A stretch of 38,978 nucleotides of DNA from Candidatus Woesearchaeota archaeon. GTDB lineage: Archaea > Nanobdellota > Nanobdellia > Woesearchaeales > UBA10216. The position numbers were made by a program, and so were the translations under genes. Below the pieces are notes generated by a model. It saw only the letters and a list, made by a program, of their open reading frames with translations, did no database searches and was not told the DNA's origin. Each line of letters starts with the position of its first letter. Within the stretch, counting starts at the first letter, position 1. Location: positions 1-38,978 of the forward strand of contig NZCN01000002.1 of the NCBI GenBank assembly GCA_002688315.1. Direction: 5' to 3'. Below are positions 11,977-18,624 of this stretch, one piece after another.

Positions 11977-12627
11977 CTAACGCTTATTTAAAACTGCATA
12001 CAACTGCTTCAGGTATTTTTGTTCTACAAACACGTACTTCTTTAATTCCTTGATCGTTTTCTCAGCGTCTAACAACACCAAGTTGTCGCCGTGCTGGTGT
12101 TGCCAAATAACTTCGTCAATTAAGTATTGCCAGTCGAAACGCTTATCTTTTTTTGCAATGGTAAGGATGTCTTCAAAGTCTTTGTCTCGCTCAGTTACAG
12201 ACTTAAGCAGAACAATGAATTCTTTCCTCAGTACCTTAATACGGAGATTACGTTTTCCTTTAAAGTCATGGACCGCATAAACATCTTCCCTCATCTTTGG
12301 ACTGATTGCAGTCTTAAAGACTTTCTTAACGAACAAGTCAAATCTTATGTCATACCTCGTGTACATCAGGGGTTTGTACTTATCCTTTAGCTTTTCAGGA
12401 ACGTAGATGTTACTCAGTCCTGTTTCCCAGAAGCCTAGCTTTTCAAGTGCTTTGATGAACTCGGCTCTGTCCTCCTCATGGTCAAACAGTAAATCTACAT
12501 CTTTTGTTTCATCTTTGTAGCCGTAGAACATCATTGCATTGCCTCCAAACGCCCAGCATTCCATGTCTTTTGCTATGCTGTCGCTTATTAGCTTGAACAG
12601 TTCAAGCTGGTCTTCATGGGTTATCAT
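11977..12627 (-). CDS. Minimal nucleotidyltransferase, DUF6036/AbiEii-like
   Basis: The sequence FGGNAMMFYGYKDETKDVDLLF (27-48, shown here in part: GGNAM and TKDVDLLF) contains the GG helix and the DxD metal site (D43, D45) of minimal nucleotidyltransferases, the fold used by AbiEii/MenT toxins and DUF6036 proteins. The C-terminal half (ILTIAKKDKRFDWQYLIDEV) is helical, as in that group. It is translationally coupled to the preceding HTH gene by an ATGA overlap, which is the arrangement expected for an antitoxin-toxin or regulator-enzyme pair. Toxicity is an inference. The substrate (tRNA, protein or nucleotide) is not determinable. Confidence 0.65.
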   Translation of the reverse strand: MITHEDQLELFKLISDSIAKDMECWAFGGNAMMFYGYKDETKDVDLLFDHEEDRAEFIKALEKLGFWETGLSNIYVPEKLKDKYKPLMYTRYDIRFDLFVKKVFKTAISPKMREDVYAVHDFKGKRNLRIKVLRKEFIVLLKSVTERDKDFEDILTIAKKDKRFDWQYLIDEVIWQHQHGDNLVLLDAEKTIKELKKYVFVEQKYLKQLYAVLNKR

Positions 12628-13229
12628 CTCATTTCCTCCAAATCTTTTTGGTTAAATGGTATGTAAACATGCCACTTTTCTGAAATTTGCGGAAAGTTTT
12701 TCTTTTTGAGTTGTGATAGCTTGCGCCAGCGGCCGTGACCGTTATGGTAGTAACGCCTAGGCATGCGTTTAATTTTGAAGCTGAGTCTCGCAACATCATA
12801 TAGTGCTCCTACTTTCTGCCAGCAATCCTTCTCCTTTGCCAGCCTGTAAAGCTTTGACCAGTCGGTAATGTGGCTGAATAGCCGCATGCTTGCAAGTATT
12901 ACTCTGAAGCTGTTTGTTTGCAGCGCATCCACTAACGCTTCCTCAGGGCCGTAGGTTCCGTGCACTTGGTGATCATACCATTCTGCTATTTTCATTGGTG
13001 AATACTTGTTTATGATGTCAAACATTCCTTTTTCCCTCGGCCGTTGCTTTCTCATTGTTATTTTGTACAGTCTTTTCCTTCTGCCTCCGCCACTTACAGT
13101 TACATAACCTTCTTTCTTTAGCTTGCTGAGCATGTTGAGTGCAGACTGCCTGCTAATGCCAAGCCGCTCAGTTGCTGTTTCCGCTGTATGCAGTCCTTCC
13201 AGTTTACGTAACGAGTTATCACTCTTCAT
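12624..13229 (-). CDS. Helix-turn-helix partner protein of the nucleotidyltransferase
   Basis: Residues 1-55 form a winged helix-turn-helix (LHTAETATERLGISRQSALN, then KKEGYVTVSGGGRRKRLYKI as the wing), followed by a basic domain rich in Tyr, Trp and Arg (HGTYGPEEALVDAL ... RYYHNGHGRWRKL). This is the layout of antitoxins that repress their own operon and bind the toxin with the second domain, as in AbiEi, though no sequence match to that family is claimed. A CTTTAAATAA box at about 13250-13259 is centred 26 bp upstream, predicting a leaderless mRNA. The gene overlaps the nucleotidyltransferase by 4 bp. Confidence 0.65.
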   Translation of the reverse strand: MKSDNSLRKLEGLHTAETATERLGISRQSALNMLSKLKKEGYVTVSGGGRRKRLYKITMRKQRPREKGMFDIINKYSPMKIAEWYDHQVHGTYGPEEALVDALQTNSFRVILASMRLFSHITDWSKLYRLAKEKDCWQKVGALYDVARLSFKIKRMPRRYYHNGHGRWRKLSQLKKKNFPQISEKWHVYIPFNQKDLEEMR

Positions 13230-14665: not shown

Positions 14666-15460
14666 TTATTTAACTCTCTTCACATCCCCAGCGTTGTGTA
14701 TGTGTTGTTCTTTTTCTGCTGAGATGTGGCCTGATAATAACCGTAGTTTTGCAAGCTTTGGAAACACGTCGTACTCAAGACTTTGCTCTGTGTAATTAAA
14801 AATATCAGGTGTTGCTACAAATATCGGCGAGAAAACAAGATAGACATCTGTTTTCTTTGGCTTCTGTACGAATTCAAGTATTTTATCTCCTTCCATCATT
14901 ACTGTTCCTTTCTCCTGCGGGTTTGCTGCTGTTGTAAGCATTAAAGTTGCAACTGTATTCTGCTTTATGTGCCTATTCCATAATTCTTCGAGGTTAATTT
15001 TCTCAAACAGAACATGCCCGTAAATTACAAGAAAATTTGTTTTCAATTTTCCTTTAACAAGGTTTAATGTATCTCCGCTTCCTTTGCTTTCTTTCTCTTC
15101 CACATAATTTATTTTAACACTGTAGCTGCTTCCGTCTTTTACTATGTCAAAAACTTTGGTAAGGACTTTCTGCCTAGCAACAACATATATTTCTTTGAAC
15201 CCGTTTTCCCGAAGCTTCTTTATTGCGAGCTCTATCACTGTAGAATCTTTTATTTGAGCTGTTATTCTGTAGCCTTCATTTATTTTGAGTTTTGATTCAT
15301 CCCCTCCACTTAAAATAACAGCAATTTTATTCTCTCCCAACGCGTTTTTTGCAAGAAACTCAACAGCTTGCGATCTGTTTCTGATTACTATGTTGTCAAT
15401 AATAGCGTCTATATCTTTCAAAATATTCTCATCCAAGGTAATGCTTATCTTTTGCTTCAT
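14666..15460 (-). CDS. RHH DNA-binding domain fused to a degenerate NDP-sugar nucleotidyltransferase
   Basis: Residues 1-42 are a ribbon-helix-helix domain (KISITLDENILKDIDAIID, then RNRSQAVEFLAKNAL). From residue 45 a nucleotidyltransferase fold of the mannose-1-phosphate guanylyltransferase/RfbA type follows (NKIAVILSGGDESKLKI; IELAIKKLRENGFKEIYVVA; FLVIYGHVLFEKINLEEL). The catalytic signature GGxGTRL is replaced by GGDESKL (52-58), and the metal-binding Asp of the 'GD' motif is His149. The enzyme part is therefore probably inactive and may sense a nucleotide sugar. The gene faces the ugd operon. Its ATG is preceded by AAGGGGAAGG as ribosome binding site, and its likely TATA (AAAATAAC) lies in an inverted repeat. 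I infer a ligand-responsive repressor of itself and/or ugd. Confidence 0.8.
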   Translation of the reverse strand: MKQKISITLDENILKDIDAIIDNIVIRNRSQAVEFLAKNALGENKIAVILSGGDESKLKINEGYRITAQIKDSTVIELAIKKLRENGFKEIYVVARQKVLTKVFDIVKDGSSYSVKINYVEEKESKGSGDTLNLVKGKLKTNFLVIYGHVLFEKINLEELWNRHIKQNTVATLMLTTAANPQEKGTVMMEGDKILEFVQKPKKTDVYLVFSPIFVATPDIFNYTEQSLEYDVFPKLAKLRLLSGHISAEKEQHIHNAGDVKRVK

Positions 15461-15498
15461 GTTCCTTCCCCTTTAACGCTGACTATGGTCTTTGACTT

Positions 15499-15544
15499 GT
15501 TATTTTCTCTCCCCCATAACTTTGTAAGGGGAAGATAAAATAAC
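15499..15544. promoter_or_regulatory. Imperfect inverted repeat, candidate operator
   Basis: The arms 15499-15515 and 15528-15544 pair at 15 of 17 positions around a 12-nt centre (GTTATTTTCTCTCCCCC against GGGGAAGATAAAATAAC). The left arm overlaps the probable TATA element of the RHH-nucleotidyltransferase gene. RHH dimers typically bind such symmetric sites. Confidence 0.55.
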
Positions 15545-15545
15545 T

Positions 15546-15559
15546 TTAGCTTAAGCTAA
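15546..15559. promoter_or_regulatory. 14-bp perfect palindrome upstream of ugd
   Basis: TTAGCTTAAGCTAA is a perfect palindrome two bases beyond the inverted repeat, and about 75 bp upstream of the ugd TATA box. It is a second candidate site for the RHH protein. Confidence 0.45.
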
Positions 15560-15633
15560 GATGCATCAGCTTATGCGGTGTAAAGCTTTGAAGTATATAA
15601 ACCTATCGGATAAAGTAGGATAACGGTAAGATA

Positions 15634-15640
15634 TTTATAT
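15634..15640 (+). promoter_or_regulatory. TATA box of the ugd operon
   Basis: TTTATAT is centred 29 bp before the ATG at 15666, predicting a leaderless mRNA and deciding this start. Two direct copies of GGATAA (15608 and 15618, 10 bp apart) lie just upstream. Confidence 0.6.
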
Positions 15641-15665: not shown

Positions 15666-16964
15666 ATGAAAATTGCTATTGTTGGAACTGGATACGTTGG
15701 ATTGGTTACAGGCGCTTGCCTTGCTAACTTTGGTAATGATGTTATTTGTGTTGACATTGATGATGAACGCATTTCTAATTTGCGTCGCGGCATTCTGCCT
15801 TTTTTTGAGCCTGGTCTTCGTGAGATTGTTGAGCAAAATATTGCTCAGAAAAGGTTAATGTTTACTACAGATAGCCAGCTTGCTATTGAAAACTCTGAAA
15901 TTATTTTTATTGCTGTTGGAACTCCGTCTGATAAGGATGGAAAAGCTGATTTAAGTTCTGTTTTCCAGGTTGCAGATACTGTTGCAAAGTTCATTAACGG
16001 CTATAAGATTATTGTTATGAAGAGCACTGTTCCTGTTGGAACTTCTCATAAGCTTAAAGAGCATTTAACAGAAAAAATGAAAGGTGAGCATGAGTTTGAT
16101 GTTGTTTCAAACCCTGAATTTTTGAGGGAAGGTGAGGCTATCCAAGATTTTACTGTTCCTGACCGTATTGTTATTGGGACTGATAATGGAAAAGCCAAGG
16201 AAATAATGACTTCTCTTTACAAGGCTATTGAAAGGACTGGAAGGCCAATTGTCTTTACAGATGTTAAGACATCTGAACTTATTAAATACGCTAGCAACGG
16301 TATGCTTGCTTCCCGTATCTCTTTTATGAATGAGCTTTCTCATTTGTGCGAGAAAGTTGGTGCAGATGCTAAGATGGTTGCAAGAGGCATTGGCCTTGAC
16401 AACAGAATTGGCTCTAGGTTTTTGCAAGCTGGTGTTGGTTATGGCGGCAGTTGTTTTCCAAAAGATGTTCGTGCTTTAGCTCAGACTTTGAAAGAACATG
16501 GCTGCAGTACTGACATGCTTACTGCAATTGAATCTGTTAATGAGAGACAAAAACTTTCTCTTATTCCAAAGATTAAAAATCTTGTTCCTGATTTGAATGG
16601 GAAAAAAATTGCAATTTGGGGTTTGTCTTTCAAGCCAAAGACAGATGACATGAGGGAAGCGCCTTCAATTGTTATTATTAATGAGCTTCAGAAACTTGGC
16701 GCTGTTATAACTGCTTTCGACCCTGTCGCAGAGCAAGCTGCTAATAAAATTCTGAAGGATGTTACTTTTTCAGATACACCTTTAAGTGCTTTGGAAGAAG
16801 CGCATGCGTTGGTTGTTGTTACTGAATGGGATTTATTCAGAGAGCTTGACAAGGAAAAAATGAAGAGCTTGATGGCTGCTCCTAATGTTATTGATGGAAG
16901 AAACATGTACGATCCTGAGGATTTAAAATCTCTTGGATTTAATTACATTGGAGTTGGGCGATGA
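15666..16964 (+). CDS. ugd: UDP-glucose 6-dehydrogenase
   Basis: It oxidises UDP-glucose to UDP-glucuronate with two NAD+. The N-terminal Rossmann motif is MKIAIVGTGYVGLVTGACLA, so the start is ATG 15666 rather than an upstream TTG. Catalytic residues are in place: K207 in SELIKYASN and the nucleophile C263 in GYGGSCFPKDV. The C-terminal UDP-binding domain includes WGLSFKPKTDDMREAPS. The length of 432 residues is standard. It leads a translationally coupled operon, as its TGA overlaps the ATG of the next gene. It supplies UDP-glucuronate to the UDP-xylose synthase in the same operon and probably to the 4-epimerase at 20976. Confidence 0.97.
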   Translation: MKIAIVGTGYVGLVTGACLANFGNDVICVDIDDERISNLRRGILPFFEPGLREIVEQNIAQKRLMFTTDSQLAIENSEIIFIAVGTPSDKDGKADLSSVFQVADTVAKFINGYKIIVMKSTVPVGTSHKLKEHLTEKMKGEHEFDVVSNPEFLREGEAIQDFTVPDRIVIGTDNGKAKEIMTSLYKAIERTGRPIVFTDVKTSELIKYASNGMLASRISFMNELSHLCEKVGADAKMVARGIGLDNRIGSRFLQAGVGYGGSCFPKDVRALAQTLKEHGCSTDMLTAIESVNERQKLSLIPKIKNLVPDLNGKKIAIWGLSFKPKTDDMREAPSIVIINELQKLGAVITAFDPVAEQAANKILKDVTFSDTPLSALEEAHALVVVTEWDLFRELDKEKMKSLMAAPNVIDGRNMYDPEDLKSLGFNYIGVGR

Positions 16965-17698
16965 AAGCGGTCATTACCTGCGCAGGTTATGCATCGCGTT
17001 TGTGGCCTTTGACTAAGGATACTCCTAAGCCTTTGCTTGAAGTGAAAGGCAGGCCTATTATTGAGCATATCATAGATAAGATTACTGAAATTTCTGAGGT
17101 TGATGGAATTTATGTTGTTACTAACGAAAAGTTTTCCAACAATTTTGAGAATTGGCTTCAAGGAAAGTCATTTAAGGTTCCAATTAAGATTTTGAATGAC
17201 AGCACTACAAGTAATGATGATCGTCTTGGCCAAGTTGGAGATATTCAGTTTGTTATAGAGAAAGAAAACGTCAATGACGATTTTTTAATAGTTGCTGGTG
17301 ATAATTTGTTTAACTTTTCTTTGATGCCTTCTTTTGAAGCTTTCAAAAATAATACTAATATTGTTAATCCTTTGTGGGAATCTAAAAGCTTCAAGGCAGC
17401 TCGTGAGTCTGGAAGTGTTGTTTTAAATGAAGATGACAATTCTTTTTCAGAGTTTATGGAAAAAGCGCCTAATCCTAAGTCAACTTTGCTTTCTCTTGGA
17501 ATATATTTTTTTCCCAAGCAGAAGTTAGAGTTGATTAAGCGTTACATTGACGAAAAAAACAATGCTGACAAGATGGGTTACTTTCTTACCTGGCTTATGC
17601 AGCAGGAAAAAGTTTTCGGCCATGTTTATCTTGAGAAATGGTTTGACATTGGCTGGATTGAAGCTTTGGAGGAAGCAAGACAGAAGTTTGGAACATGA
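16961..17698 (+). CDS. NDP-sugar pyrophosphorylase (sugar-1-phosphate nucleotidyltransferase)
   Basis: A 245-residue GT-A-like nucleotidyltransferase: [20 protein letters not shown] is the nucleotide-binding loop, and [19 protein letters not shown] follows with the conserved lysine. IVAGDNLF near residues 108-115 carries the metal-binding aspartate. [13 protein letters not shown] and [10 protein letters not shown] match the archaeal/bacterial 'AAGYATRLYPLT' subfamily, which includes glucose-1-phosphate thymidylyl- and uridylyltransferases. In this operon UTP:glucose-1-phosphate uridylyltransferase is the natural role, because UDP-glucose feeds ugd. That specificity is inferred. Unlike the divergent RHH fusion it keeps its catalytic motifs. 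ATGA and ATG/TGA overlaps couple it on both sides. Confidence 0.88.
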
Positions 17699-18624
17699 AA
17701 ACAGTTTTAATTACAGGCGGGACAGGATTTATTGGAAGCCATTTTGCTAAATTTTTGCTTGAGAAAGGCTACCGTGTTATTGCTGTTGATAATTTTTTGA
17801 CAAGTAATGAATCAAACATCAAGGATATTAAAGAAAATCCTAACTTTAAATTAATCAATCATGATATTTCTCTTCCTTTAGAGATTGATGAAGATGTTCA
17901 TTACCTTTTGCATTTTGCAAGTCCTGCAAGCCCTGTTGATTATTCTCAACTTCCAATCCAGACACTTAAGGTTGGTGCGTTGGGAACTCACAATGCTCTT
18001 GGAATAGCTCGCGCTAAAAATGCTGTTTTCATGCTTGCTTCAACTTCAGAAGTTTACGGCGATCCGTTAGTTCATCCTCAGCCTGAGTCTTACTGGGGTA
18101 ATGTTAACCCAACTGGGCCACGTGGCGTTTACGATGAAGCCAAACGTTTTGCTGAAGCAATGACCATAGCTTACCATAAAATTCATAAGATTGATATCAA
18201 AATTGCCCGTATCTTTAACACGTTCGGACCAAAAATGAGGAAGAAAGACGGCAGAGCAGTTCCGAATTTCATTACACAGGCTTTAGCCAACCAGCCAGTA
18301 ACAGTTTATGGCGATGGCTCACAAACAAGGAGCTTTTGTTATATTTCTGATTTGATAGAAGGGCTTTACAAGCTGATGCTTTCAGATGTTAATGAACCTG
18401 TAAATATTGGAAATCCTAACGAGTATACAATTCTTGATTTAGCGAAGAAGATAATTCAGCTTTCAGGAAGCACTAGTGAAATAGTTTTCAAAGACCTCCC
18501 TGTTGACGACCCAAAAACAAGATGCCCTAATATTACCAAAGCTAAAACAATTCTCGAATGGCAGCCAACAATCGGAGTAGACGAAGGATTAACGAAGACT
18601 ATTGAATGGTTTAGAACAAGTTAA
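17695..18624 (+). CDS. uxs: UDP-glucuronate decarboxylase (UDP-xylose synthase)
   Basis: An extended SDR enzyme with the NAD-binding motif GGTGFIGS (8-15). The UXS signatures are strong: ASPASPVDY (75-83), [13 protein letters not shown] (91-103), [19 protein letters not shown] (116-134), and the catalytic pair Y146/K150 in [12 protein letters not shown]. It converts UDP-glucuronate to UDP-xylose by oxidation, decarboxylation and reduction. The length (309) is typical. Its ATG overlaps the stop of the pyrophosphorylase gene, so UDP-glucose, UDP-glucuronate and UDP-xylose synthesis are made from one coupled message. Xylose-containing surface glycans are the likely destination. Confidence 0.93.

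Follow-up and report, generated by a model that had tools for sequence, protein, structure and literature searches.

A ribbon-helix-helix protein with a degenerate sugar nucleotidyltransferase domain as the predicted regulator of a divergent UDP-sugar operon in Woesearchaeales

The window analyzed here, a stretch of 38,978 nucleotides from a Candidatus Woesearchaeota archaeon (GCA_002688315.1, contig NZCN01000002.1), carries on its minus strand, at positions 14666-15460, a gene of 264 amino acids in which a ribbon-helix-helix (RHH) domain is joined to a nucleotidyltransferase (NT) fold. A preliminary description had extended this feature to 15560; the gene itself stands, and 15461-15560 is upstream DNA. 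A scan of a genome collection returned 17 orthologues at 52-77% identity and one at 37%, which excludes chance as the origin of the open reading frame. Nearly all of them are labelled Woesearchaeota or Nanoarchaeota. The record 'Methanosarcinales archaeon AB_1215_Bin_111' (L019/L106) also carries this Woesearchaeal locus and is probably a mislabelled or mixed bin.

The RHH domain occupies residues 1-44 (15329-15460, minus strand). The match of residues 1-45 to the N-terminal RHH model of NikR is weak (E 1.4e-4, far under the cut-off of the model), and Pfam RHH_1 is not reached; the cut-off of the latter (20.5) is exceeded by full-length homologues with the same N terminus (21.8 for L107 and 25.1 for L105). 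The DNA-facing strand residues K2, K4, S6, and T8 lie on one face and are 97-100% conserved in the clade. Residues 46-264 (14669-15325, minus strand) form a degenerate NDP-sugar NT domain containing the motifs GGDESKL, H149, Q199-K200-P201, and H253-I-H255. Pfam NTP_transferase (PF00483) matches residues 47-225 with an E value of 1.9e-16, and the AF2 model, confident in the NT part, resembles VTC1, RmlA, and GMPPB in Foldseek searches (7x8k, E 5e-18). Confidence of the AF2 monomer is low in the RHH part, which is to be expected of an obligate dimer, and no claim made here rests on that part. The proposal that an RHH domain precedes an NDP-sugar pyrophosphorylase fold is thus borne out by the PF00483 match together with the RHH evidence.

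Facing this gene on the plus strand are three genes of UDP-sugar metabolism, identified by Pfam and NCBIfam unless otherwise stated: ugd, encoding UDP-glucose 6-dehydrogenase and the predicted target of regulation (15666-16964); an NT without an RHH domain, UDP-glucose pyrophosphorylase-like and with its catalytic motifs kept (16961-17698); and the UDP-glucuronate decarboxylase, or UDP-xylose synthase, gene uxs (17695-18624; matched to PDB entries 2b69 and 4gll, E about 1e-105). By the established pathway, the operon can supply UDP-glucose and, from it, UDP-glucuronate and then UDP-xylose. The divergent UDP-sugar genes that had been described, an intact pyrophosphorylase included, are therefore present at 15666-18624, and a search for the same architecture and its neighbors in other genomes found the association with sugar-nucleotide genes to be conserved. 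At 36 of 50 loci encoding a degenerate RHH-NT, ugd is directly divergent from the regulator gene, and at four more it lies within five genes; the remaining 10 have no divergent ugd nearby. A divergent ugd accompanies other RHH-NTs at only 2 of 35 loci. At 24 of the 50, an NT close to that of the window is likewise part of the operon. In three genomes (L057, L061, and L106; e.g. L106:758-1666), a protein of 302 amino acids without a Pfam or NCBIfam match is encoded between regulator and ugd; a Nudix-box-like stretch, GAINPINDFGFDYTVKRELYEEA, was seen in it by eye. Elsewhere in the window, two overlapping minus-strand genes at 11977-13229 encode a winged-HTH-like protein (12624-13229) and a product with a GGNA...DVD motif like that of minimal/AbiEii-type nucleotidyltransferases (11977-12627). 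Library matches for this pair, possibly a toxin-antitoxin system, are weak.

Between the two divergent genes lies a putative operator (15604-15633), recognized by alignment and genome scans, that consists of three 8-bp half-sites placed 11 bp apart: TATCGGAT at 15604-15611, GTAGGATA at 15615-15622, and GTAAGATA at 15626-15633. Its left edge adjoins a TATA-like box of the regulator gene, GTTTATATA on the minus strand (15594-15602), and its right edge a TATA-like box of ugd, ATTTATA on the plus strand (15633-15639), from which ugd starts nearly leaderless; the former is conserved at the same edge in many loci, and the latter is conserved likewise. The intergenic layout from 15594 to 15639 can thus be written TATATAAAC-n-TATCGGAT-AAA-GTAGGATA-ACG-GTAAGATATTTATA, an array set between two divergent TATA-like boxes. 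In an alignment of 35 loci, half-sites 2 and 3 are identical in 33-35 of the loci at most of their positions, and the outer flanks vary freely. Operator scores in these loci range from 26 to 34 (of a possible 34), compared with a maximum of 22 for shuffled sequences. Sites are weaker or rearranged in the deepest degenerate loci (L101-L104).

No second site rose above the control level when the window's own genome was scanned for the pattern, so that the site is unique there and a regulon extending beyond ugd was rejected. In another genome (G067), a second full operator-like site with a TATA-like box (L151:5064-5082; G067:C11:52563-52581) occurs besides the one at ugd; it lies in an intergenic stretch, with no open reading frame of at least 90 amino acids reading away from it. 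The leader of the regulator gene is long (15461-15600, minus strand) and folds into a strong hairpin (z -4.5); similar inverted repeats are found in the leaders of L059 and L066, and a 44-nucleotide stretch of it is repeated at 80% identity at G000:C2:88071-88114.

The element follows the regulator gene across genomes. Of 371 genomes of the phylum, 35 contain its exact core, and 33 of these carry a degenerate RHH-NT gene. Among the 147 genomes with ugd at E<=1e-60, and allowing at most one mismatch, the operator stands ahead of ugd in 40 of 45 that have the regulator gene but in only 2 of 102 that lack it. These counts were tallied by hand from tables of gene, site, and ugd occurrence, and the former takes in one truncated regulator copy (L150) and three cases with one gene between site and ugd. 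Fisher's test gives p 6e-28, or 2e-24 minus those three cases, values that are optimistic because relatedness is ignored. Exceptions with a site and no regulator gene are G334, where the contig ends about 145 bp past the site, in the expected place of the regulator, and G203, a genome that is 91% complete. In G182 and G229, the regulator is encoded on another contig and the exact operator is still found at ugd. Twenty control ugd promoters from genomes without the regulator gene, two of them shortened by contig ends, score 15-21, like shuffled sequences; together with the count of 2 in 102, this rules out the element as a mere core promoter element.

A further line of evidence comes from the RHH-NT family as a whole, in which the half-site ahead of each gene varies with the DNA-facing residues 4, 6, and 8 of the protein it encodes. 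The combination KST occurs with GTAGGAT in 35 of 48 cases and RTT with GTATGAT in 10 of 19 (chance about 1-2%); GTAATAC accompanies RSS in 5 of 5 and RST in 5 of 9 (chance again about 1-2%). When only loci with a single type of site are considered, K4 favors GTAGGAT by 33:1, R4/T6 favors GTATGAT by 9:3, and R4 with Ser or Cys at position 6 favors GTAATAC by 11:0. Phylogenetically independent contrasts all agree in direction but are too few, numbering two and three, and the proposed code rests on 2-3 supported independent contrasts. Under such a code, K4/S6 would prefer GTAGGATA and R4/T6 would prefer GTATGATA. The divergent association, the near-invariant operator, its tracking of the gene, and the half-site change linked to the RHH domain lend strong support, at the level of sequence, to the earlier suggestion of a DNA-binding regulator of sugar-nucleotide genes, and comparative evidence argues strongly for a transcription factor that is autoregulated and acts at a single promoter.

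A profile search of the 371 genomes revealed about 50 degenerate RHH-NTs and many further RHH-NTs besides. In the family tree, the window type and related groups lacking the GTR loop form a clade of 55 rows (SH-aLRT 100) beside mainly GTR-retaining RHH-NTs. Further losses of the loop occur inside that mainly GTR-retaining group (L110, L121/L127, L125, and L128); the number of catalytic losses is approximate because the tree is a quick one with support that is moderate in places. A separate group of GTR-less RHH-NTs combines R/S/S strand residues with upstream GTAATAC half-sites (L069:1286-2110, L058:1524-2345, L079:14345-15175, L112:14182-15009, and L105:7477-8307), and in the first three of these loci a window-type regulator lies within about 8 kb. 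The window's own genome encodes a GTR-retaining paralogue (L002; G000:C6:4436-5272) with an RHH domain and the GGIGTRLQP, PK, and NAD motifs. A phosphomannomutase/phosphoglucomutase gene follows a few bases 3' of it (region G000:C6:4436-6611, L107), and sequences like GTATGAT/GTAAGAT half-sites lie upstream, so this paralogue may combine enzyme activity with control of its own gene. The presence of such a protein in the same genome makes a PutA-like enzyme-repressor the probable ancestor of the regulator. Its origin from an enzyme, proposed at the outset, is supported by the position of the GTR-less clade beside RHH-NTs that keep the loop.

The residues of the NT pocket were tabulated for 49 members of the degenerate family. 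The GTR loop is absent throughout, with Glu at position 55 in 41 of 49; the lysine of the PK site is usually replaced by Arg, or otherwise by another residue (YR in the window protein); and the second metal Asp, at the WxDxG position, is His253 in 42 of 47, usually within an H-I-H motif. Position 149, the first metal Asp of the GD motif, is still Asp in 42 of 49. Both replacements named in the preliminary description, GGxGTRL by GGDESKL and the GD Asp by His149, are thus present in the window protein, which with H149 and H253 lacks the canonical residue at either metal position, but His149 is particular to the clade close to that protein and is not a hallmark of the family. Because the residues that define an active nucleotidyltransferase were checked and found not to be in place, the protein is not classed as one, and very probably its NT domain no longer carries out nucleotide transfer. 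The GTR-retaining RHH-NTs need not all be active either, since the second metal position is Pro in 5 and Ser in 3 of the 21 examined. In the degenerate family, G127, K200, and T172 are invariant, G185 is nearly so, and position 199 of the EKP motif is Gln in 45 of 48 members; it is Glu in all 21 GTR-retaining RHH-NTs and in all 29 NTs without an RHH domain. The pocket therefore looks retuned rather than decayed, and the fixed residues together with the conserved E199Q replacement suggest ligand sensing. From the fixed pocket and the pathway controlled, we favor a nucleotide sugar or NTP as what is sensed.

It is very likely that the protein is a dedicated transcription factor derived from a sugar-nucleotide enzyme, which binds the putative array, controls both the ugd-NT-uxs operon and its own gene, and responds to a ligand held in its pocket. 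Sequence comparison supplies the architecture, the loss of catalytic residues, the pairing with ugd, the element, its tracking of gene and ugd, and its change with the RHH residues; from these we infer physical binding of the operator, repression, a ligand, and feedback by an end product. In the proposed mechanism, RHH dimers would read the three 8-bp half-sites at their 11-bp spacing between the divergent TATA boxes, and occupancy of the array would control the regulator's own gene and the operon. Dimers bound there would obstruct the TATA/BRE region that adjoins the array on either side, and since the DNA beside both TATA boxes would then be covered, repression is the most likely outcome. 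The old active site would bind most likely a nucleotide sugar of the pathway, or else a sugar phosphate or NTP, and the ligand would change DNA affinity by either releasing or strengthening binding. A regulon of one promoter over UDP-glucuronate and UDP-xylose synthesis makes a nucleotide sugar of this path the natural signal.

That the regulator might activate the operon instead of repressing it seems unlikely. The array does lie immediately 5' of the TATA box of ugd, a position from which an archaeal activator can recruit TBP or TFB. Half-site 3, however, runs into that box, and half-site 1 is separated by 1 bp from that of the regulator gene, an arrangement that suits blocking of both promoters. 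An objection of another kind is that the NT domain could be an oligomerization scaffold without any sensing role, the protein then being a constitutive autoregulator of the ugd promoter. The disappearance of the catalytic residues would agree with this, but the domain is kept at high identity, with G127, K200, and T172 invariant and G185 almost invariant, and the specific E199Q and HIH features are fixed rather than drifting; we regard this, too, as improbable.

Much less probable still is that the protein remains an enzyme or has become a non-catalytic regulatory subunit of the neighboring pyrophosphorylase, with an RHH domain serving assembly only and the element belonging to another regulator or to the core promoter. 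One catalytic residue does persist, in the form of D149 in 42 of 49 members, and the dead paralogue GMPPA, which regulates a live one, is a precedent (PMC11228364); in addition, the operon encodes an NT close to that of the window at 24 of 50 loci. Against this, GTR, the PK lysine, and the second metal Asp have been lost together, and the element is missing at ugd in 100 of the 102 genomes without the regulator gene, tracks the RHH residues across the family, and is also found upstream of RHH-NT genes with no adjoining ugd.

Whether the woesearchaeal RHH-NTs as a whole make up a wider class appears evenly balanced: all would be regulators that sense sugar nucleotides, the GTR-retaining ones being at once working nucleotidyltransferases and repressors of the operons that encode them (trigger enzymes, often next to a phosphomannomutase gene), catalysis having been lost several times independently to give pure sensors, with an operator code set in each group by RHH strand residues 4, 6, and 8.

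To our knowledge, how uncultivated DPANN archaea regulate their genes has hardly been studied. The present analysis names a predicted regulator together with its exact putative operator, one operon as the target, and a few candidate ligands, which one purified protein and a short DNA would suffice to test. It also points to a transition from enzyme to sensor of which plausible intermediates survive, among them the GTR-retaining paralogue encoded in the window's own genome, and to a natural series in which DNA specificity can be related to RHH residues. A search of mostly non-subscription literature turned up no account of an RHH-sugar-nucleotidyltransferase regulator.

Several known systems share features with the regulator, which would work like an RHH ligand-responsive regulator. 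NikR likewise has an N-terminal RHH domain followed by a ligand-binding domain, and the RHH part matches weakly by sequence; in NikR, however, sensing falls to an ACT-type domain that binds nickel, where the regulator has a nucleotidyltransferase domain. RmlA, VTC1, and GMPPB resemble residues 46-264 in fold and sequence, whereas the regulator lacks the catalytic loop, the PK lysine, and the second metal Asp and has gained an RHH domain. Trifunctional PutA provides the precedent for an RHH-enzyme fusion as an autogenous repressor (PMC5293562): there, too, an N-terminal RHH domain sits on a metabolic enzyme fold and the protein represses the genes of its own pathway, but the fold is another one and PutA is active, whereas the regulator is without catalytic residues, which makes the GTR-retaining RHH-NT paralogues the closer parallel. 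GMPPA is a dead nucleotidyltransferase able to sense a nucleotide sugar (PMC11228364), and so a catalytically dead paralogue of NDP-sugar nucleotidyltransferases acting as a sensor, as we infer for the regulator; unlike it, GMPPA has no DNA-binding domain and acts by binding the enzyme GMPPB. The regulator appears to combine the principles of PutA and GMPPA in one chain.
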